Origin: an uncultured Clostridia bacterium
GTDB taxonomy: Bacteria; Bacillota; Clostridia; Oscillospirales; Acutalibacteraceae
DNA length: 50,204 bases
Direction of reading: 5' to 3'
NCBI GenBank assembly: GCA_947585965.1
Contig: CANPXK010000011.1
Coordinates: 1 to 50,204, forward strand
This document shows, one piece after another, positions 3,770 to 45,556 of this stretch; position 1 is the first letter of the stretch; each line of letters starts with the position of its first letter. A model generated the notes under the pieces. It saw nothing but the letters and a program-made list of their open reading frames with translations. It did not search any database and was not told the origin of the DNA. Made by a program: the position numbers and the translations under genes.

Positions 3770-4921
3770 CTATTGAGGTATATATTTTCGGTCAGAGCCG
3801 GCTCCAAATCTGAAAATATTTATTACACCGGTTTTACAGTTGACGGCATATATATCAATAGCATATTCGTTGTATGTATTGTATTTTCTTACAGCCGTTG
3901 TTGGATTTCCAATTAAATTTGCATGATTTGCATCACCTGGTTTATAACACCAAGAGCATAACGTCGAAATGTCAACATAGCTGTCATTACTATCCCGAGG
4001 AGTGATGATATTATCACAATGAACATGACCGTGGATATATGCTAACACTGTTCCATTATTTTTAGAAAAATTATTTAAGATATCAGATACAAGTTCACCA
4101 TTTTCAGGCGTAGTAATAGAGTTTTCTGCTTTTGTACCCATATGACCTACAACAAGAACAGGTTTATTTGTATTTAGTGCAACATCTCTTAACCATTCAA
4201 TTTCTTTGTTAGAATATTTTGCGCCACTGTTATCTGTACAACAATCTAATGATATATACCTTACTGACGGATACGCCGGATTTTCAAAATCCACATAGTA
4301 GTAGGCACAATCTTCATCTGATGTATTATATACGATGTCCAGGTATCTTGTATGTCTTAATGAAGTCCCAATTATTTCTTGTTTCGTATTTCCGTCCTTG
4401 TTGAATTTAAACATTTCGTGATGACCTATTGTATATAAATAAGGAATATACGTATTGGAAATCAGCCTTGTAAACTCTGTAAAACGTTTTTTATTTTCAT
4501 AATGATTAAAATCGTTAGTTGATTCATCAGTAGTAGATGCTATGGTATCTCCAAGATTAGCGATAAAATCGACATCTGTTTTTTCAGCTAATTTAGTAAT
4601 AACATCAGCGAGCTGTCTATAATTGCTGTAACCTTTTGAACCGGTTAAACTTGTCCTGTCGGATGGTGTATATGTATTTGGGTAGTTAGTACCATGTACA
4701 TCTGTACAAAGAGCAAAAACTAAAGTATCTTTGTCTTTAATTTGTTGAACTTTTTCTATTAATTCGTCCTCTTTATCATGGTAATTGGTCGCGTATTCTT
4801 TATTGCTATTATCTGTACTTATAAAAGCATTAAAAACACAAGTTGCTATTGTGACGAGAATAAGCGTAAGGGAGAAAATAAAAAGCAATTGACTTTTATT
4901 TACTCGAATTTTATAATTCAT
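3770..4921 (-). CDS. Membrane-anchored calcineurin-like metallophosphoesterase
   Basis: A 383-residue protein with an N-terminal signal anchor at residues about 10-31 (LLFIFSLTLILVTIATCVF), so the enzyme domain probably faces outside. Metal-binding motifs appear in order: DVHG (D-x-H), LGD, GHHE in place of the usual GNH[D/E], VVGHMG, and HGHVH. The order and spacing fit the calcineurin-like fold. The Asn of GNHE, normally a metal and phosphate ligand, is His here. ATG 4921 follows AAAGGAGAT. The promoter carries palindromes in its spacer (4950-4978). The substrate is unknown; phosphodiesters or phosphomonoesters are possible. Confidence 0.85.
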   Translation of the reverse strand: MNYKIRVNKSQLLFIFSLTLILVTIATCVFNAFISTDNSNKEYATNYHDKEDELIEKVQQIKDKDTLVFALCTDVHGTNYPNTYTPSDRTSLTGSKGYSNYRQLADVITKLAEKTDVDFIANLGDTIASTTDESTNDFNHYENKKRFTEFTRLISNTYIPYLYTIGHHEMFKFNKDGNTKQEIIGTSLRHTRYLDIVYNTSDEDCAYYYVDFENPAYPSVRYISLDCCTDNSGAKYSNKEIEWLRDVALNTNKPVLVVGHMGTKAENSITTPENGELVSDILNNFSKNNGTVLAYIHGHVHCDNIITPRDSNDSYVDISTLCSWCYKPGDANHANLIGNPTTAVRKYNTYNEYAIDIYAVNCKTGVINIFRFGAGSDRKYIPQ

Positions 4922-4978: not shown

Positions 4979-5023
4979 TAGCTTTTTAAAAATTTTTGTC
5001 TGTTATCATAATTTTTTGAAAAT

Positions 5024-5069
5024 AAAAAAGGACTGTAACATAAAGTTATAATAAACCTGTGTTAAGTCC
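5024..5069 (-). terminator. Intrinsic terminator of the iscS-iscU transcript
   Basis: On the minus strand GGACTTAACA pairs with TGTTACAGTCC (one bulged base) across a 19-nt loop and is followed by TTTTTTATTTT. Nothing is encoded between iscU (ends 5413) and this site except the structured repeat, so the repeat is inferred to be transcribed as the 3' UTR of iscSU. Confidence 0.7.
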
Positions 5070-5150
5070 CATGTTATTATGCTAATAGTTTTTTGTTGTA
5101 TTTTTATCGCAGACGTATATGGCTGTCTTACAAAAATATTTTGCGGAGCG

Positions 5151-5404
5151 GTGCCGTGCCGGCACTGTCAATTCGTAATTATTTTATTCAGGTAAGCTGC
5201 TCAATAGCTCGACCATAAATTTACTCGATGAACAAGAGATGAGTATGTCATTTGTAGTTGCGGAGCGGCTTGCAGAGCCGCTCACGATATTCTCTTACGC
5301 ACACCGTCAGGCAAACTACCTATCGCGGAAACGGACAACCCTTCACTATAAACAAAGCGAACACAGTGAGCGAAAACGCGAACCGGACAGCGGGGGCACC
5401 CCGC
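5151..5404. repeat. Dispersed structured repeat, copy A
   Basis: The gene-free stretch 4922-5412 holds the promoter and terminator listed here plus this element. It matches 45266-45556 in inverted orientation. Shared blocks include CTGTCAATTCGTAA near one end, ATAGCTCGACC, GAACAAG, GTATGTCATTT, CAGGCAAACTA, TATCGCGGAAAC and AAAGCGAAC-CAGTGAGCGA near the other. Ends are GC-rich hairpins: GTGCCG-TGC-CGGCAC (5151-5165) and GCGGGG-GCA-CCCCGC (5390-5404). An internal hairpin pairs GAGCGGCT (5263-5270) with AGCCGCTC (5276-5283). CTGTC near the left end and GACAG near the right form a short inverted terminal repeat. It ends 8 bp from the iscU stop. No ORF within it looks like a protein. The family is not recognised. 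Confidence 0.85.
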
Positions 5405-5412
5405 CACGCCGC

Positions 5413-5841
5413 TTATTCTATGGGGCATTCTTCGCAGTCGTGTAATTCGCCGACAATGGGGGTCGGGTCAATTCCTTTGCGGGTGTAATAGTCACTAACA
5501 GCAGCCTTGATGGCTTGCTCGGCAAGTACGGAACAATGTACTTTTACGGGCGGAAGTCCGTCAAGTGCCTCCATGACAGCCTTGTTTGTAAGCTTGAGTG
5601 CATCATCAATCGAATGTCCTTTGACAAGCTCGGTTGCCATTGAACTTGTGGCAATAGCGGCACCGCAGCCGAATGTCTTGAAGCTTACATCGGTGATAAC
5701 ATCATTATCAACCTTGATGTACATTTTCATAATATCTCCGCACTTGGGATTGCCTACCTCGCCGATACCGTCAGCATCCTCCATTTCGCCGACATTTCTC
5801 GGGTTTGCAAAATGATCCATAACCTTTTCACTGTATGCCAT
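5413..5841 (-). CDS. iscU: Iron-sulfur cluster scaffold protein IscU/NifU
   Basis: A 142-residue U-type scaffold on which [2Fe-2S] and [4Fe-4S] clusters are built from sulfur supplied by the desulfurase. The three cluster cysteines are present: C34 in GNPKCGD, C59 in FGCGAAIATSS and C103 in VHCSVLAEQAI, together with the conserved Asp after C34. ATG 5841 is six bases after AAAGGTG; the in-frame GTG at 5850 overlaps that site and is unlikely. The gene begins 28 bp after iscS stops, on the same strand, so they form one operon. The short Cys-containing tail (HDCEECPIE) is typical of clostridial NifU-like scaffolds. Confidence 0.95.
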   Translation of the reverse strand: MAYSEKVMDHFANPRNVGEMEDADGIGEVGNPKCGDIMKMYIKVDNDVITDVSFKTFGCGAAIATSSMATELVKGHSIDDALKLTNKAVMEALDGLPPVKVHCSVLAEQAIKAAVSDYYTRKGIDPTPIVGELHDCEECPIE

Positions 5842-5869
5842 GATAATCACCTTTCTATAATAATATTAA

Positions 5870-22469: not shown

Positions 22470-25400
22470 TTGGGCGTCAATAGGCAAATTTCCAAACATT
22501 CTTTTGTTGACATCATAAAAAATACACCGGTAAAGATGAAAAAAATATTGGCTGTTGCGTGTGCGGTTACCGTTGCGGGTGGTATGATACCGTTTGCATC
22601 TCTGTCCACTCAGGGTGCGCAGACACCGATTTATGCGGTGACAACGGACAGACTTAATATCAGAAAGGGTGCCGGAACGAAGTATGGTGTTATAGATACC
22701 GTTGATGAGGACGTTACGGTTACCGTGCTCGGAAGAACAAATTCAAACTGGCTTAAGGTGAAGCTTCCGGATGGTACGACAGGCTATTGCTCGGGTGATT
22801 ATCTTGATATTGTAACGGATGCAAGGGTTTCGGTTGATCTTAATCTCAGGAAAGGAGCAGGAACTCAGTATTCCGTTATAAAGACACTGAGACCCGGTGT
22901 CAAACTGGACATCATAAAGTTCTGTAATAAATCATGGGCACAGGTTGAGCTTACCACAGGAGCAAAGGGGTATGTATGTACGGATGGCAATTATGTGACA
23001 TACATAGCTGACAGCAATGTCAATGTAAGTGAAACTGCCGCTCCGGTGAAGGTTTCCATTTCCAATACTTCGGCATCACTGAATATAGGAAAAACTTTAA
23101 CACTGAAAGCAACAACGAATTCGGGCGGGAAATTTACATGGTCAAGTTCAAACAGTAAGGTTGCGACAGTTACATCCGCCGGTGTGGTTAAGGGTGTATC
23201 CGCGGGTACTGCGACAATAACTGCTAAGGACAGCAAGTCGAAAAAAACAGTGAAGTGTACCGTTAAGGTAAAAAAGGTTGTTCTGACATCAATAAAACTT
23301 CCGGAAACCTCGAAAACTCTTACCGTCGGCTCATCGTACACAATTAAGCCTGCAATAACCCCGTCGAACGGTGCGGTGAAGTACTCTACATCAAATAAAT
23401 CCGTTGCTTCCGTTACGTCTGCGGGTGTCGTCAAGGCTGCTAAAGCCGGAACGGCAAAAATAACCGTGGCTGATGCAAACGGAAGTAAAAAGGCCGTGCT
23501 GACCATAAAAGTAAAGGATAAGCTTACCATATCCGCAGCATCGGCAAATCTCGATGTCGGAAAAACGGTTACACTCAAGGCGACAACGACCTCGGGCGGA
23601 AAGTTTAATTGGTCGAGTTCGGACAGCAAGGTCGCTACGGTTACCTCGGGCGGTGTTGTCAAGGGTATTGCAGACGGTAAAGCTACGATAACGGCAAAGG
23701 ACAGTAAATCAGGCAGTTCTGTAAAATGCACCGTTAAGGTAAGTAATGTCGTTATTACTTCCATAAAGCTTCAGGAGGTGTCAAAATCACTTGCAGTCGG
23801 CTCCTCCTTTGAAATCAATCCGACAATTTCCCCTTCAAACGGAAAGGTAAGCTATTCTACATCCAATAAGTCCGTTGCTACCGTAACATCCGCCGGTATT
23901 GTCAAGGCGGTTAAGGTCGGAACCGCAAAGATTACCGTTGCAGATACGAACGGAAGTAAAAATGCCGCGATGACAGTAAATGTAACTAAGGACACGGCTC
24001 CTCTGAAAAATAACTCCAAGGTTTCATCAACGAATATAGCGCTTGGAGCTTCCGTAAAGATAACGGGCTCTGCAGCGGGAGGTACTTCGCCTTATACATA
24101 TTCTTACTATTACAAAAAATCTTCCGATAAAGATTGGGTAGTGAAAAAGCTGAATACTACAGATAATTCAATACAATTCAACCCGGAAACGGTTTCATTG
24201 TACAATATAAGAGTAGTTGCAAAAGACAGCAGAGGTGCCGTATCGGAAAAAATCATTAATGTAAATGTCAAAGATAAGCTTACGATTTCAAGAATATCGG
24301 CAAGCATTGGTATCGGAGAAAGTCTTACCCTTAAGGCAACGACAACCTCAGGCGGAAATTTTAAATGGTCAAGTTCAAACAATAAGGTTGCAACAGTGAG
24401 TTCAAAAGGTGTTGTAAAGGGCATTTCTGAAGGCAGTGCAGCAATTACGGCAAGAGATGATAGATCCGGAGAAAGTGTAAGATGTACCGTAAAGGTCAAG
24501 AAGGTTGTGCTTACATCCGTAAAGCTTCCTGATTCTTCAGTAACTATTGTAAAGGGCGAAAGCTATACAATAAAGCCGATAATTACACCCGCATACGGAG
24601 AGGTGAAATATTCGACATCGGATAAGACCGTTGCAACGGTATCATCAAACGGTGTTGTCAAAGCCGTAAAGGTCGGCACTGCAAATATAACGGTTTCGGA
24701 TCCCAACGGAAGCAAGAAGGCGGTGCTTAAGGTCAGTGTTGAAAAAGCACCTGCAATTGAGATTTCCAAATCATCGGCAAGTATTGAAGTAGGAGCAAAT
24801 GTATCGCTTAAGGCAACTTTGTCAAACGGAGAAAGCGTCAAGTGGTCAACTTCAAATTCAAATGTCGCAGCGGTTCGTAACGGTGTTGTAAGCGGTCTTA
24901 AAAGCGGAACGGCAACGATAACGGCAGCTGATAAGACGGGAAATGCAAAAGCAAGCTGTAAGATTACAGTAAAGTCAGTATCCTCATCCGGTGTGAGCCT
25001 TTCGAGATATACGGCAGGTACGACCGCAGGAAAGACAATATATATAAAGGGTTATTCTACATACAGTGCTTCGTGGGGTTCCAGTGATACAAATATAGCG
25101 ACTGTAAAGGATGGATTTATAAAAACAAAAAATACAGGTAAGGCTGCGATAACCTATACGGACAAAAAGGGCAGAAGGGCAGTATGCATTGTTACCGTGA
25201 GCAGTGCAGACCCGATAAAATTCACATATTCTTCTCCGAATTCCGCTGTTCGTAATTCTAAGGTCAAGCTTATAGCAATAACGGATAAAACTCGTACAAA
25301 GGTTAAATTTGTCATAGATGTAAACGGAAAGAATGTTACAGTCAATGCAGCCGACAAAAAGGCTGACGGTGATACTTATGTATGGACGGCTGAGTACAAA

Positions 25401-26312
25401 GCGACTGTAGCGGGGACGCTCGACTATAAAGCTTATTCATACAAGAATGAAAAATGGTCAACAAGCTCGGACGGTAAGGCAGATATATATGTAACCACTA
25501 AAACCGATGTAAAAACCACAACCACGGACAGACTCCGTGCGAGTGATGGCCTGATTGAGTTTATAGGTGAAAAAGAGGGATTTGTTTCCCAGATTACCTA
25601 TGATACACTTGCAAATAATATACCTACGCTCGGTTACGGCTATGTTGTATGGGAGGGTTGGACTTTCTATGATAATCTGACCAGAAATGAAGCTTATGCT
25701 TTGCTTGTCAAGGCTGTAAATCAGGAGGTTTATGCAAGCAGAGTGAACGATATGCTTGTTGAAAACAAGATAAAGTTCAATCAGCAGCAGTTTGATGCGC
25801 TTGTATCGTTCTCGTACAATTTAGGTACGGGATGGACATATTCTTCGGATCTTCTGGATATACTGCGTAATTCCTATGGACCTTCCACATCGAGCGGTAC
25901 GGTAACAGCTACAGTGGATGCTTATGGAGGACTTTACCTCAGAAAGAGTTATACGACCTCCTCCGATGCAATCACTCTTATGCCTGACGGCTCAAAGGTA
26001 ACTCTTGTCAGTACAAAAGTGTATAACGGTGTATGGTACAAAGTAAAGACGTCGGACGGAAAGGTCGGATATTGCAGCGGAACGTATCTTGATCTGCATT
26101 ACTCAAATTCATCCGTCAGGGATCTTAATTACGTGAATAAAAATTCACTTATCAAGGAAATGCTTGCTTATCATCATGCAGGCGGTGTGTGCTACTACGG
26201 ACTGCTTTACAGACGTGCGGATGAGTTGGAGATGTTCCTTTATGGGGATTATGCTTCGGACGGACGAAATAATAAACACAATTTCCCGAATCCTTATTGT
26301 ATTTCATGGTAA
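22470..26312 (+). CDS. Secreted GH24 lysozyme with SH3 and Big2 repeats
   Basis: A 1280-residue secreted cell-wall hydrolase. The signal peptide ends near residue 47 (MKKILAVACAVTVAGGMIPF core); the TTG start gives a basic N-region, and ATG 22533 is an alternative. Two SH3 domains are at about 52-176. Six Big2 Ig-like repeats in three alternating pairs follow, interrupted by an unrelated beta domain (about 510-600), then two more divergent Big2 repeats and another beta domain (about 905-1010). The GH24 domain begins at about 1020 (FIGEKEGF, IPTLGYGYV, FDALVSFSYNLG). After DILRNSYG a third SH3 (about 1143-1209) intervenes. The rest of GH24 then resumes with the conserved GLLYRRADELEMFLYGDY to the C-terminus. 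It probably cleaves peptidoglycan in growth, division or competition. No sortase motif or anchor is seen. Confidence 0.9.
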   Translation: MGVNRQISKHSFVDIIKNTPVKMKKILAVACAVTVAGGMIPFASLSTQGAQTPIYAVTTDRLNIRKGAGTKYGVIDTVDEDVTVTVLGRTNSNWLKVKLPDGTTGYCSGDYLDIVTDARVSVDLNLRKGAGTQYSVIKTLRPGVKLDIIKFCNKSWAQVELTTGAKGYVCTDGNYVTYIADSNVNVSETAAPVKVSISNTSASLNIGKTLTLKATTNSGGKFTWSSSNSKVATVTSAGVVKGVSAGTATITAKDSKSKKTVKCTVKVKKVVLTSIKLPETSKTLTVGSSYTIKPAITPSNGAVKYSTSNKSVASVTSAGVVKAAKAGTAKITVADANGSKKAVLTIKVKDKLTISAASANLDVGKTVTLKATTTSGGKFNWSSSDSKVATVTSGGVVKGIADGKATITAKDSKSGSSVKCTVKVSNVVITSIKLQEVSKSLAVGSSFEINPTISPSNGKVSYSTSNKSVATVTSAGIVKAVKVGTAKITVADTNGSKNAAMTVNVTKDTAPLKNNSKVSSTNIALGASVKITGSAAGGTSPYTYSYYYKKSSDKDWVVKKLNTTDNSIQFNPETVSLYNIRVVAKDSRGAVSEKIINVNVKDKLTISRISASIGIGESLTLKATTTSGGNFKWSSSNNKVATVSSKGVVKGISEGSAAITARDDRSGESVRCTVKVKKVVLTSVKLPDSSVTIVKGESYTIKPIITPAYGEVKYSTSDKTVATVSSNGVVKAVKVGTANITVSDPNGSKKAVLKVSVEKAPAIEISKSSASIEVGANVSLKATLSNGESVKWSTSNSNVAAVRNGVVSGLKSGTATITAADKTGNAKASCKITVKSVSSSGVSLSRYTAGTTAGKTIYIKGYSTYSASWGSSDTNIATVKDGFIKTKNTGKAAITYTDKKGRRAVCIVTVSSADPIKFTYSSPNSAVRNSKVKLIAITDKTRTKVKFVIDVNGKNVTVNAADKKADGDTYVWTAEYKATVAGTLDYKAYSYKNEKWSTSSDGKADIYVTTKTDVKTTTTDRLRASDGLIEFIGEKEGFVSQITYDTLANNIPTLGYGYVVWEGWTFYDNLTRNEAYALLVKAVNQEVYASRVNDMLVENKIKFNQQQFDALVSFSYNLGTGWTYSSDLLDILRNSYGPSTSSGTVTATVDAYGGLYLRKSYTTSSDAITLMPDGSKVTLVSTKVYNGVWYKVKTSDGKVGYCSGTYLDLHYSNSSVRDLNYVNKNSLIKEMLAYHHAGGVCYYGLLYRRADELEMFLYGDYASDGRNNKHNFPNPYCISW

Positions 26313-42564: not shown

Positions 42565-43458
42565 ATGCAGTTTGATGAACTCGAGTACCTTAAGGAAACA
42601 GGACAAAAGGGCGATTTTTTAATGCCGTATACTGTCGTAAGGACGGTTATGCCTGACTTTTTTACGACTTATCCTATGCACTGGCACGAGGAAATGGAAA
42701 TTGTATATGTGGAAAGCGGGGAATTCAATGAATATATTGACCTTGAAAATTACCATGTGAGGGCAGGGGACATTATTCTTATAAATCCGTGTGTTCTCCA
42801 TTCATTCAAGAATTATGAAAATATCAGAACTAAGTTTACAACGATAATATTCAGCTTTAATATGATAACGGGAAATAATACCGACGGCTGTGCGATAAAG
42901 TATCTGACGCCTTATCTTGACGGAATGTATATCAATCCGGTTGTGATTTCAAAGGATGCACCACATTATGGGGAACTGGAGGCAAGTGTAAAGAGGCTTG
43001 TCGAATTGTTTGACAATAAGGAGGATTATTTTGAAATAGGAATAAAATCCGAACTGTATAAGATGTTTTTCGTTTTGTTCAAATATTTTTTCCGTCCTGA
43101 TATGCACCAGCCCGATATAAAGGATAATACAACAAGAAATATAAAAACAATTCTCGACTATATTGATGAAAACTATATGCACCCCATTACGATAGATGAG
43201 CTTGCGGAAACGGTTAATTTAAGTAAGCACTATTTTATGAGGTTCTTTAAGAAATACATGGGAATGACCTGTATAGAATACATAAATGATTACCGGCTTA
43301 ACATTGCCGCGAACCATCTTGTCAATACAGGAATGCAGATAACGGAAATTGCCGAAAAAATAGGGATAACAAATTTATCCTATTTTAACAGGATATTCAA
43401 AAAGAAATTTGATATGACACCGAAGGAATACAGATATAACGTTGATAAATCAAGATGA
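42565..43458 (+). CDS. AraC-family transcriptional regulator with N-terminal cupin
   Basis: A 297-residue regulator. The cupin-like sensor domain (about residues 20-110; MHWHEEMEIVYVESGEF, VRAGDIILINPCVLHSF) would bind a small ligand, often a sugar. The two C-terminal helix-turn-helix motifs are ITIDELAETVNLSKHYFMRF and ITEIAEKIGITNLSYFNRIF, ending with the conserved FKKKFDMTPKEYR. The LRR surface-protein gene begins 16 bp downstream on the same strand, so the two are likely co-transcribed. That suggests control of surface-protein expression or a shared signal. Confidence 0.93.
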   Translation: MQFDELEYLKETGQKGDFLMPYTVVRTVMPDFFTTYPMHWHEEMEIVYVESGEFNEYIDLENYHVRAGDIILINPCVLHSFKNYENIRTKFTTIIFSFNMITGNNTDGCAIKYLTPYLDGMYINPVVISKDAPHYGELEASVKRLVELFDNKEDYFEIGIKSELYKMFFVLFKYFFRPDMHQPDIKDNTTRNIKTILDYIDENYMHPITIDELAETVNLSKHYFMRFFKKYMGMTCIEYINDYRLNIAANHLVNTGMQITEIAEKIGITNLSYFNRIFKKKFDMTPKEYRYNVDKSR

Positions 43459-43474
43459 AACCGGAGAGAAAGTT

Positions 43475-45265
43475 ATGAAAAGAAAAGCAGTGAAAATTAT
43501 TTCAGCACTAACGGCAGCTGTTGTGACTGTATCTTTATGCGGCATATCAGATGTGTATGCGGCAAATTTTATTGATAACGGAGATTTCAGATATCTGATT
43601 TCGGAGGAGGACAAAACAGCTGAAATAATCAGCTATGAAGGTAAAAGTCTTTATGTATCCGTTCCGGACAATGTTGAGGGTTACACCGTGGTATCGGTCG
43701 GCGCAGCGGCATTCAGAGGAAGTGAAACAATAAAGGAACTTGAAATACCGGAAAGTATCAAAGAAATAAAGAACTGTGCATTTCAGAATTGCACGGCACT
43801 GAAAAAGGTACAGATACCGGCTTCTGTCACAAAGATAGGCGATTCCGCCTTTTCGGGTTGTGAGGCACTGACAGATATCAGTATTGATGACGGATTGACG
43901 GAATTAGGCAAATATGCATTTTCGGAATGTAAATCCCTTGAAACTCTGCATTTACCCAACAGCCTGGACAGTATAGGGGATTATGCATTCCTTAACTGTA
44001 CATCGCTGACCGAACCGGGTATACCCAAGGCATTGAGAAGTTTCGGAAAATATGCTCTTGAAAATACAAGATGGATAAAGGAGCAAAAAAATGAATTTGT
44101 TACCGTAGGTGACGGAATACTAATTAAGTATACAGGTGACAGCGAGGTCAAAAGTCTTCCGGATAAAGTAAAGGTTGTGGGAAGCTATTCTTTTGCAGGA
44201 AACAGGAAAATCAGGCAGGTTATGCTGCCAAGCTCTGTTAATTCAATAGATGTTTCGGCATTTGAAAATTGTACTGCACTTAACAATGTATATATTCCCT
44301 CATCGGTTGCACAGATAGGGGAAAGAGCGTTTTACGGTTGCACCTCATTAAAGACTGTTGATTTTCCTAACGGAATAAACACTATTGAAAAATCTGTGTT
44401 TCAGGATTCGGGACTTGAGAGCTTTGAAATTTCGCCGAATGTTTCAAATGTCGGTGAAAGTGCTTTTGAGGGTTGCACAAAATTAAAGGATGTAAAAATA
44501 GGTGATGGGGTCAAAAAAATAGGAGTAAATTCGTTTAAACACTGTAGCACCCTCAGCAGGGTTGTATTTCCCGAAACACTCAAAGAAATTGATGAAAATG
44601 CTTTTGACGGCTGTTCCGGACTGCTCAGAGCAGAGTTTAACGGAGGAACGACACTGAAATCAGGTGTTTTCAACGAATGTACAAATTTATTGGCTGTTGT
44701 TTTCTATAAAAACCCGCCCGAGATTGATGATAATGCTTTTTCTCTTACTCCGAGGGTTGTAATCTACAGTGATAATAATGTGTATCTGCAGGAATATGCT
44801 TCAAGGAACGGCAAACAGAGTGACAGTATCAGAAACCTGCCGGCATACGATGAGAATACGGAACTGATATCGGAGAATGTCGGAAAATTTGATTTTTCCG
44901 CAGGATACACGCTTGTAGGATTTTTAATAGTTGTTATAGATCTTGCTTTTGTCATACTCACAAGTGCCTACATATTGTTTATTGAGCCGAAGCAGAGGCT
45001 CAAACGCCGTGCCGCATCAAAATCAAAGAAAGCTGCCATAAAAAGAGATGACGAACCGGTTACTTATGTAAAAGCACCCAGTCGCAGGAAAATAAGGCAG
45101 GATTCTGAGGCCGCAAGGCGGCGGACAAGTCCTTCAAAGCACAGTTCTATTGACAGCTCATCAGCCAAAAGACCCGTGTCCAAGAAACAAAACAGCAATA
45201 AAACTCATGACAGAGACATAAAAAGTGGCAACACAAAGACATTTGAGCGTCCAACCAACCATTAA
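43475..45265 (+). CDS. BspA-type leucine-rich repeat surface protein with C-terminal membrane anchor
   Basis: About 596 residues from ATG 43475 (GGAGAGAAAG upstream). The signal peptide is MKRKAVKIISALTAAVVTVS. About a dozen BspA-type LRRs (pattern SIKEIKNCAFQNCTALKKVQIP) span about residues 65-445, with the recurring VGDGILIKY insertion. A linker precedes one transmembrane helix (FLIVVIDLAFVILTSAYILF) at about residues 480-505. A basic, Ser/Lys/Arg-rich tail of about 90 residues follows, predicted to be cytosolic. It is probably an adhesion or binding protein held in the membrane. Copy B of the structured repeat begins at the base after the stop codon. Confidence 0.88.
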   Translation: MKRKAVKIISALTAAVVTVSLCGISDVYAANFIDNGDFRYLISEEDKTAEIISYEGKSLYVSVPDNVEGYTVVSVGAAAFRGSETIKELEIPESIKEIKNCAFQNCTALKKVQIPASVTKIGDSAFSGCEALTDISIDDGLTELGKYAFSECKSLETLHLPNSLDSIGDYAFLNCTSLTEPGIPKALRSFGKYALENTRWIKEQKNEFVTVGDGILIKYTGDSEVKSLPDKVKVVGSYSFAGNRKIRQVMLPSSVNSIDVSAFENCTALNNVYIPSSVAQIGERAFYGCTSLKTVDFPNGINTIEKSVFQDSGLESFEISPNVSNVGESAFEGCTKLKDVKIGDGVKKIGVNSFKHCSTLSRVVFPETLKEIDENAFDGCSGLLRAEFNGGTTLKSGVFNECTNLLAVVFYKNPPEIDDNAFSLTPRVVIYSDNNVYLQEYASRNGKQSDSIRNLPAYDENTELISENVGKFDFSAGYTLVGFLIVVIDLAFVILTSAYILFIEPKQRLKRRAASKSKKAAIKRDDEPVTYVKAPSRRKIRQDSEAARRRTSPSKHSSIDSSSAKRPVSKKQNSNKTHDRDIKSGNTKTFERPTNH

Positions 45266-45556
45266 GCGGGGAGCCCCCGCAGGCAATTCGCGGCGGCGTG
45301 CCGCCGCTGTCATGTTCGCGGGGTCGCTCACTGCGTTCGCTTTGATTGTTGTGGATGGGTAGTCTGTTTCCGCGATAATTAGTTTGCCTGTCGGAACGCG
45401 GCAGAGAGTGTCGAGAAAGCCTCTAGCGAGGCTTTCCGCAAAACAGAAATGACATACTTATCGCTTGTTCATGGAGTAAATTGACGGTCGAGCTATAGAC
45501 TAATTTGCCTGAGTAAATTAGTTACGAATTGACAGCGGGGGCACCCCGCCCGATTT
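45266..45556. repeat. Dispersed structured repeat, copy B
   Basis: The inverted partner of 5151-5404, beginning directly after the LRR gene stop. Hairpins in forward coordinates are GCGGGG-AGC-CCCCGC (45266-45280), GCGGCG-TGC-CGCCGC (about 45291-45307), an internal GAAAGCCTC-tagc-GAGGCTTTC (45415-45436), and GCGGGG-GCA-CCCCGC (about 45535-45549). The internal stem occupies the place of GAGCGGCT/AGCCGCTC in copy A: sequence differs, pairing is kept. Other blocks are nearly identical to copy A. It lacks any transposase. The orientation relative to the upstream gene is the same as for iscU and copy A. Confidence 0.85.

Follow-up and report, generated by a model that had tools for sequence, protein, structure and literature searches.

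A hairpin-ended, modular and probably mobile repeat family in the genome of an uncultured Clostridia bacterium and in its genus

The window, a stretch of 50,204 nucleotides of DNA from an uncultured Clostridia bacterium, contains two similar sequences on opposite strands. Their hairpins differ in sequence and keep their pairing. What kind of element preserves its hairpins while their stems change? An earlier note, made from the letters of the window alone, described the pair as a two-copy repeat under selection for folding, either of RNA or of single-stranded DNA. It proposed a non-autonomous mobile element, a family of regulatory RNAs in 3'-untranslated regions or a noncoding RNA family. Our analysis points to the first of these possibilities: the family is probably a high-copy, modular, non-autonomous mobile DNA element, which would work like REPIN or BOX repeats.

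The two copies in the window

Copy A is found at 5151-5404 of the plus strand and copy B at 45293-45549 of the minus strand. Their alignment spans about 255 bp, in agreement with the roughly 250 bp noted before, and has ungapped arms of 98 nt at 83% identity and 71 nt at 76%. No open reading frame of 90 or more amino acids overlaps either copy, as the earlier note had also stated. Both copies follow the same plan: a 15-nt palindrome P, with a 6-bp stem and the loop TGC, is followed by TGTCAATTCGTAA, which is identical in both copies; a hairpin H near the middle of the element, an inverted tag and an inverted P complete it. The sequence AAAGCGAAC.CAGTGAGCGA differs in one base between the copies.

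The left terminal hairpin P of copy A (GTGCCG-TGC-CGGCAC) is at 5151-5165, followed by the left tag and inner inverted repeat TGTCAATTCG (5166-5175), whose TGTC pairs with the right tag in predicted folds. The conserved body includes modules A and B (5176-5262) and module C (5284-5384), whose end is GCGAACACAGTGAGCGAAAACGCGAACC. Between them is the internal hairpin H, formed by GAGCGGCT/AGCCGCTC within 5263-5283, with T.G as its ninth pair. The right tag GGACA, an inverted TGTCC, is at 5385-5389. All these features are read on the plus strand; the right terminal hairpin (GCGGGG-GCA-CCCCGC), an inverted P of the GCGGGG type, is at 5390-5404 on the minus strand. Copy A is flanked by two plus-strand remnants. 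The left one, GCGGAGCG (5143-5150), lies outside the copy and resembles the start of an older H hairpin, a type of junction also found in nested copies. The right one, CACGCCGC (5405-5412), resembles half of an older inverted P and extends from copy A to the stop codon of a NifU/IscU-like gene (5413-5850, minus strand; PF01592, 2.4e-51). This stop codon (5413-5415) adjoins the array with an offset of 0.

The entire element of copy B covers 45266-45549 and reads from left to right on the minus strand. Its left terminal hairpin P (GCGGGG-TGC-CCCCGC) is at 45535-45549 and its hairpin H, GAAAGCCTC/GAGGCTTTC, at 45415-45436, both on the minus strand; the stem sequence of H is unlike that of copy A. 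The right terminal hairpin (GCGGCG-GCA-CGCCGC), an inverted P of the GCGGCG type, is at 45293-45307 on the plus strand. A second right-end hairpin, GCGGGGGCTCCCCGC, is found at 45266-45280 on the minus strand. Copy B adjoins the stop codon TAA (45263-45265, plus strand) of a BspA-type LRR gene (43442-45265). In the extent of 45266-45556 given in the earlier note, the second right-end hairpin had been merged with the rest into one element. Its description of the hairpins stands: the H stems differ and are both fully Watson-Crick over the span that it considered, and the end hairpins differ while keeping the loop TGC, or its complement GCA, in both copies.

Elsewhere in the window, tandem repeats of 300 nt and shorter ones are found at 23049-24926, inside an open reading frame of 1280 amino acids (22470-26312). 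They probably correspond to repeated protein domains.

Copy number, arrays and distribution

The genome that holds the window (G000) has 2.87 Mb in 196 contigs and is 97.6% complete. A BLAST search of this genome with copy A gives at least 110 matches at E<=0.01, with 40 of the 76 candidate stretches scored. Copies A and B are therefore two among many full and partial copies, and the description as a two-copy repeat has to be abandoned; the search for further copies, which the earlier note had named as a check, finds them in abundance. The 15-nt pattern GYGSSGTGCCSSCRC has 163 matches in G000 and the reversed control pattern has none.

A complete unit consists of the 15-nt hairpin P, TGTCAATYCG, a body with the internal hairpin H, an inverted TGACA, and either an inverted P or another GC hairpin. 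We have found 42 such units by pattern in 60 fetched regions, 41 of them in G000 and one in G021, with a length to the right tag of 239-245 nt. The tag is practically constant: in a list of 138 P belonging to the three main types, with at least one entered twice (loci L048 and L084 overlap), NGTC follows in 136 and TATC in two. P with NGTC serves as left end, in the form NGTCAATYCGTAA or a close variant of it, and in inverted orientation as right end. There is a second kind of right end, a GC hairpin GCC(C/T)GCGGGGG-loop-CCCCCGC in place of TGACA-P', which ends many units. The GTAG-like TTTGTAG found upstream of H varies among units.

Many copies form tandem or truncated arrays, and nesting is present. 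Some units end early at the next P, some inverted P are joined to internal points of another copy, and P may be stacked; in L038 an older left P has apparently been split by a newer unit. A second type of element shares H, module C and the right end with the first and has other hairpins on its 5' side (L040, L045, L073, L086). These hairpins resemble CGCCGTCTGCGGACGGCG, AAAGGCTCTGCCTTTGG and AAGCCTTTTGAAAAAGGCTT (L040, L045, L073, L086, L090, L094, L211) and stand upstream of the common H-C-R part at most of these seven loci. This second type may be more widely spread than the first.

Several other features were noticed in or beside the arrays. The contigs C14, C17, C22, C36, C78 and C103 of G000 start or finish in or beside arrays, so the assembly was probably broken by them and the copy number is probably underestimated. 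Loci L058 and L064 (C62 and C96 of G000) have a near-identical left flank with different arrays behind it, which suggests either a duplicated host segment or a mixture of strains in the assembly. Small open reading frames ending in ..VYQIVKDHYNKK are repeated in or beside arrays (L045 at about 3830-4180, L054 at 1150-1300, L060) and look by eye like type I toxins or holins; array borders are found at TTGACA-like boxes near them. In L079 (G000, C3:65000-66900), at about 1400-1500 of the minus strand, a RelB/DinJ-like antitoxin frame, recognized by eye, is followed by a toxin-like frame, which seems, also by eye, to be interrupted by a P element after its first residues.

How far does the family extend? 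A covariance model built on the H-C-R part matches 44 of the 64 genomes of the genus, whose members are gut bacteria, at a threshold of E<=0.001. Strong matches, with E below 1e-36, are found in G000, G001, G021, G060 and G105. Diverged species such as G012, G020, G025, G026, G029 and G101 have at least 40 scored matches each (the best 48 per genome were scored). Outside G000, copies are known as matches or small samples. A DNA search with copy A finds the element in three of 60 genomes, its own included; these are three of 37 from the genus, and none of 23 from other families is matched. A DNA search with a partial copy, which covered 20 genomes (all but one accessed by way of their NifU loci) and was run without a positive control, gave no match, and none resembling the element was seen in the loci compared in G064. 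A weak class-wide model search of 391 genomes, in which the best seven candidates per genome were scored under strict filters, detected the own genome only. Distant blastn searches of phage and plasmid records with copy A gave no match, and two patterns gave none each against viral contigs.

Rfam has no match at gathering score for the window and seven further loci, and none at E<=1 for 5000-5500 of the window. The reclassification as a known RNA family, which the earlier note had tied to this check, does not apply. We found no description of a hairpin-repeat family in this bacterial group in a literature search that covered few subscription journals. A near-identical diverged short element, with a CCGGCG stem and a different right end, is present in L052 (about 797-1000) and L088 (G021:C55), perhaps at the same place in both species.

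Array borders and sites compared with related species

Many right ends abut stop codons precisely. Of the 53 right ends found, 16 were excluded on reading, since 15 continue into the element itself or a neighbouring element and one is a false match. In 19 of the 37 that face host DNA in G000, a convergent stop codon is found at an offset of -1 to +3 nt. A convergent open reading frame is present within 60 nt of 21 of these 37 ends, at -1 to +3 in 19 cases and at 23 and 26 nt in the other two. A binomial comparison of 19/21 with a rough uniform null gives 3e-19. These counts are based on hand-curated ends and on frames of at least 70 codons (50 if they run off the locus), with no use of annotation. 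Eight other right ends abut different borders, as judged by reading: six a TTGACA-like box (L231, L017, L235, and L045 with three), one a ribosome-binding site (L059) and one a tRNA (L016).

Left ends are looser. After setting aside 13 of the 50 as internal or stacked, 37 face host DNA. Nine of these have a frame of at least 100 codons reading into the element, three of them judged antisense or spurious (L016, L231 minus 10547, L234 minus 11361). The remaining six fuse in frame to a long open reading frame and the element supplies the stop codon; L017 is a seventh case. Other left ends are found 0 to 127 nt after a stop. Arrays in G000 often fill intergenic gaps right up to the stop codons.

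We have compared five sites with related genomes, and the arrays of G000 are absent there in the relatives. These relatives are other species, so that insertion and loss of flanking DNA are not separable in time. At the site of copy A, a different sequence, which includes a terminator-like hairpin, comes after the NifU stop codon in L127 (RGIG5109, genome G064), where the window has the element. A second site, C33:8221-8953, lies between genes which look by eye HU-like and S4-like. The gap measures 57 bp in G060 and 53 bp in G064, with a hairpin like those of intrinsic terminators; in G000 an array of about 740 bp begins within the HU stop codon and ends shortly before the following start codon. 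At this same site G021 has an element of the second type and G105 has other hairpins. At C33:13738-14698, G064 and G105 have terminator-like hairpins, neither of them present in G000, and the last codons of one gene are replaced in G000 by codons of the element. At C8:50238-51123, the TGA stop and AACATG are 41 bp apart in G021 and G060, whose surrounding sequence is 88-96% identical. In G000 an array of 886 bp follows TGA immediately and 10 bp remain ahead of AACATG, so that some 30 bp have been lost. At the fifth site, C8:45030, three relatives run on past the stop with other sequence, while in G000 the switch to the element falls within the stop codon (AAATA|G). The relatives also have terminator-like hairpins at this site, which is not syntenic on its far side.

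In the second, third and fourth of these sites the native flank has been lost and not merely displaced, and at the two C33 arrays the intrinsic-terminator-like hairpins of the relatives are cleanly gone.

Stem changes, possible explanations and known repeat families

The changes in the stems have been followed in 78 distinct H-C-R units from G000, G001 and G021. Cells of H are paired in 98.0% of cases, and changes on both sides are found at six of the nine pairs. The covariation score is 0.291, against a mean of 0.095 for shuffles, none of 500 reaching the observed value, and slid controls stay at or below 0.075. Seven perfect stem alleles are present; the two main ones account for 36 and 17 of the 78 units. 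A scan for N6-TGC-N6-NGTC in loci assigned to 21 genomes finds 179 fully paired P with nine distinct stems in 14 genomes, besides 15 with five pairs and nine with four. The scan with a control tag finds none fully paired, two with five pairs and 11 with four. These counts refer to copies and not to independent events, and the loop and the tag are fixed by the search itself. Three stems make up 124 of the 126 perfect P in G000, and chimeric P are also found, such as GCGGCG/CGGCAC. The covarying stems that the earlier note had foreseen are thus well documented, both in H and in P.

Does this covariation reflect selection on RNA? The cells of H that are not Watson-Crick include nine G.T, six A.C and eight others, and the 12 single mismatches in P include two G.T and three A.C or C.A. 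RNA wobble on one strand would favour either G.T or A.C; neither is favoured in these small counts, so selection on one RNA strand is unsupported. The discrete perfect alleles also fit DNA correction or module exchange, and we do not retain the earlier claim of selection on RNA folding. As compared with shuffles, copy A folds as RNA with z -2.69 on the plus strand and just -1.30, a slight effect, on the minus strand; for copy B, folded as single-stranded DNA, z is -4.76.

A regulatory 3'-untranslated or noncoding RNA family, whose transcribed hairpins would stabilise mRNA or regulate the neighbouring genes while selection keeps the RNA fold, would agree with the covarying stems and with the plus-strand folding of copy A. 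The location of right ends at stop codons also agrees with it, and since many of them are placed there, the elements are probably transcribed. Nevertheless, the mismatches lack any strand asymmetry, and the strand of copy A that is read from the abutting NifU gene is the minus strand, the one with the slight folding. Rfam is silent, and tandem, truncated and nested copies, absent from the compared sites in relatives, fit a mobile repeat better. We find an RNA family very doubtful for these reasons. A related proposal starts from three observations: right ends abut precisely on stop codons, some sites have lost their native terminators, and no Rho is detectable. How, then, is transcription of such genes brought to an end? 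The Rho model TIGR00767 has no match in G000, while it matches 12 of 14 control genomes and exceeds the cut-off in eight. In a genome without Rho, the arrays might have been co-opted to mark the ends of transcripts and preserved for this role. Their position at stop codons and the missing terminators at the two C33 arrays agree with this, as does one of four stretches scanned for terminator-like sites (4 vs 1.4 in shuffles, sd 1.1). However, the other three give 2 vs 1.1, 0 vs 0.6 and 0 vs 0.9, and by eye no conserved T-tract follows the element hairpins. Beyond copy A a T-rich, hairpin-like stretch is visible by eye, at which the terminator scan lists no site. The relatives at C8:45030 do have terminator-like hairpins, but next to a non-syntenic far side, and the absence of Rho is taken from a single assembly which is 97.6% complete. 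We consider such a takeover unlikely. Its fullest form would be that, in a lineage apparently without Rho, many genes had their own intrinsic terminators replaced by a hairpin repeat that propagates itself. This repeat would have trimmed the DNA between genes back to the very stop codon and taken over the formation of mRNA 3' ends without a T-tract; its ends would be read by shape, and its stem would be free to change during its spread through the genus. This we regard as improbable.

The paired changes might also be unselected, if they arise by template switching in a quasipalindrome, one arm being copied from the opposite one, or by exchange of hairpin modules. Quasipalindrome correction is the subject of published papers. 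The few discrete perfect alleles with few intermediates, both in H and in P, and the chimeric P are what such processes would leave, and they are compatible with a mobile element. On the other hand, correction alone leaves the spread of the family unexplained, and the persistence of the TGC loop, the 6-bp length and the GTC tag with nine stems in 14 genomes suggests some constraint on the hairpin, even if loop and tag were fixed by the search (the control tag gave none). We consider unselected changes quite possible, although we would not count on them. A classical MITE, with terminal inverted repeats, a target duplication and a DDE transposase as its mover, would account for the inner inverted repeat TGTCAATTCG / CGAATTGACA and the inverted P at both ends, and TA is found on both sides of two arrays (L043, L055). 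Nevertheless, the flanks read show no consistent target duplication, and a transposase that reads sequence could hardly tolerate end stems that vary. Recurring open reading frames near the copies of G000 are overlapping loci, frames inside arrays or, by position, three ordinary pairs of paralogues. A classical MITE is therefore rather improbable.

A mobile element that is non-autonomous, one of the options of the earlier note, is well supported by the many copies, by their nesting and tandem repetition, and by the orthologous sites without arrays in related species. Its enzyme would be supplied in trans and would recognise the shape of the hairpin and the GTC tag, which would leave the stem sequence free to change. 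We infer this reading of shape from stems that change while loop, length and tag are constant. Copies would insert preferentially into or beside existing palindromes, and homologous recombination between copies would produce the tandem arrays. Loss of flanking DNA with no function would bring the element up against a stop codon, a -35 box, a ribosome-binding site or a tRNA, and at such a border its GC hairpin may serve as the 3' end of the neighbouring mRNA.

Some simpler versions have been discarded. Nesting by insertion alone does not suit the C8 array, which has more truncated 5' pieces than 3' pieces, so recombination must also act. A TA target duplication was dropped as only the two arrays mentioned above fit. 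As for the mover, Y1 transposases (IS200/RAYT) are present in 17 of the 64 genomes of the genus and absent from G000. By a hand count, they are found in six of the 15 genomes with at least 20 model matches and in 11 of the other 49, with no clear link, and no element lies beside the six Y1 genes fetched.

The near constancy of loop, length and tag in hairpins whose stems change offers a natural test of shape reading by a mobilising enzyme. The family also brings hairpin-ended mosaic repeats, as a superfamily that extends through a large part of one genus, into a bacterial group for which the literature searched describes none. REP, BIME and REPIN repeats are described in PMC3733652 as GC hairpins that carry at one end an unpaired tetranucleotide of fixed sequence, present in inverted pairs and in many intergenic copies; they are found next to the 3' ends of convergent genes and sometimes supply a TAG stop. 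Our family is like the REPINs of the GTAG superfamily in having two inverted hairpins per unit, P-TGTC...GACA-P', although many of its units end in the second kind of hairpin. Unlike GTAG REPs, it has NGTC after the hairpin (136/138) as its tag and not GTAG, and unlike REPINs, its two hairpins are separated by a conserved body of about 210 nt with an internal hairpin. RAYT-associated REPs are different too, given the lack of Y1 in G000 and of elements beside the six genes fetched in the genus.

According to PMC3733652, the tag of the CGTC-tagged REPs is CGTC, often TGTC, they have no dedicated transposase, they are found downstream of genes, and they have stems of 8-9 bp, loops of 4-5 nt and a CCA tail; Firmicutes is not among the five phyla that its passages on them name. 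Our family shares a related-looking tag, the apparent lack of a dedicated transposase and the location downstream of genes, but its stem has 6 bp and its loop is TGC, of 3 nt. With dRS3 as the example for the side of the tag in CGTC REPs, the tag of our family seems to be on the other side of the hairpin.

Pneumococcal BOX elements are modular, with variable tandem modules, more than 100 copies and predicted stem-loops; they are regarded as non-autonomous, and target duplications have been reported for them (PMC3049150). Like BOX, and also RUP and SPRITE, our family is a modular, high-copy, stem-loop repeat, a resemblance in architecture only. It differs from BOX in its ends, which are GC hairpins with changing stems, and in that the flanks read define no target duplication. 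Features of MITEs are present in the terminal inverted repeats TGTCA...TGACA and the inverted P; no autonomous partner with the same ends was found near the fetched copies of G000, Y1 being the transposase family searched. Rickettsial palindromic elements, Correia/NEMIS and ERIC are small palindromic mobile repeats which are alike by kind. In summary, we place the family among the small palindromic mosaic repeats; it lacks the defining features of GTAG, RAYT and CGTC REPs that were tested, and it would work like REPIN and BOX elements.
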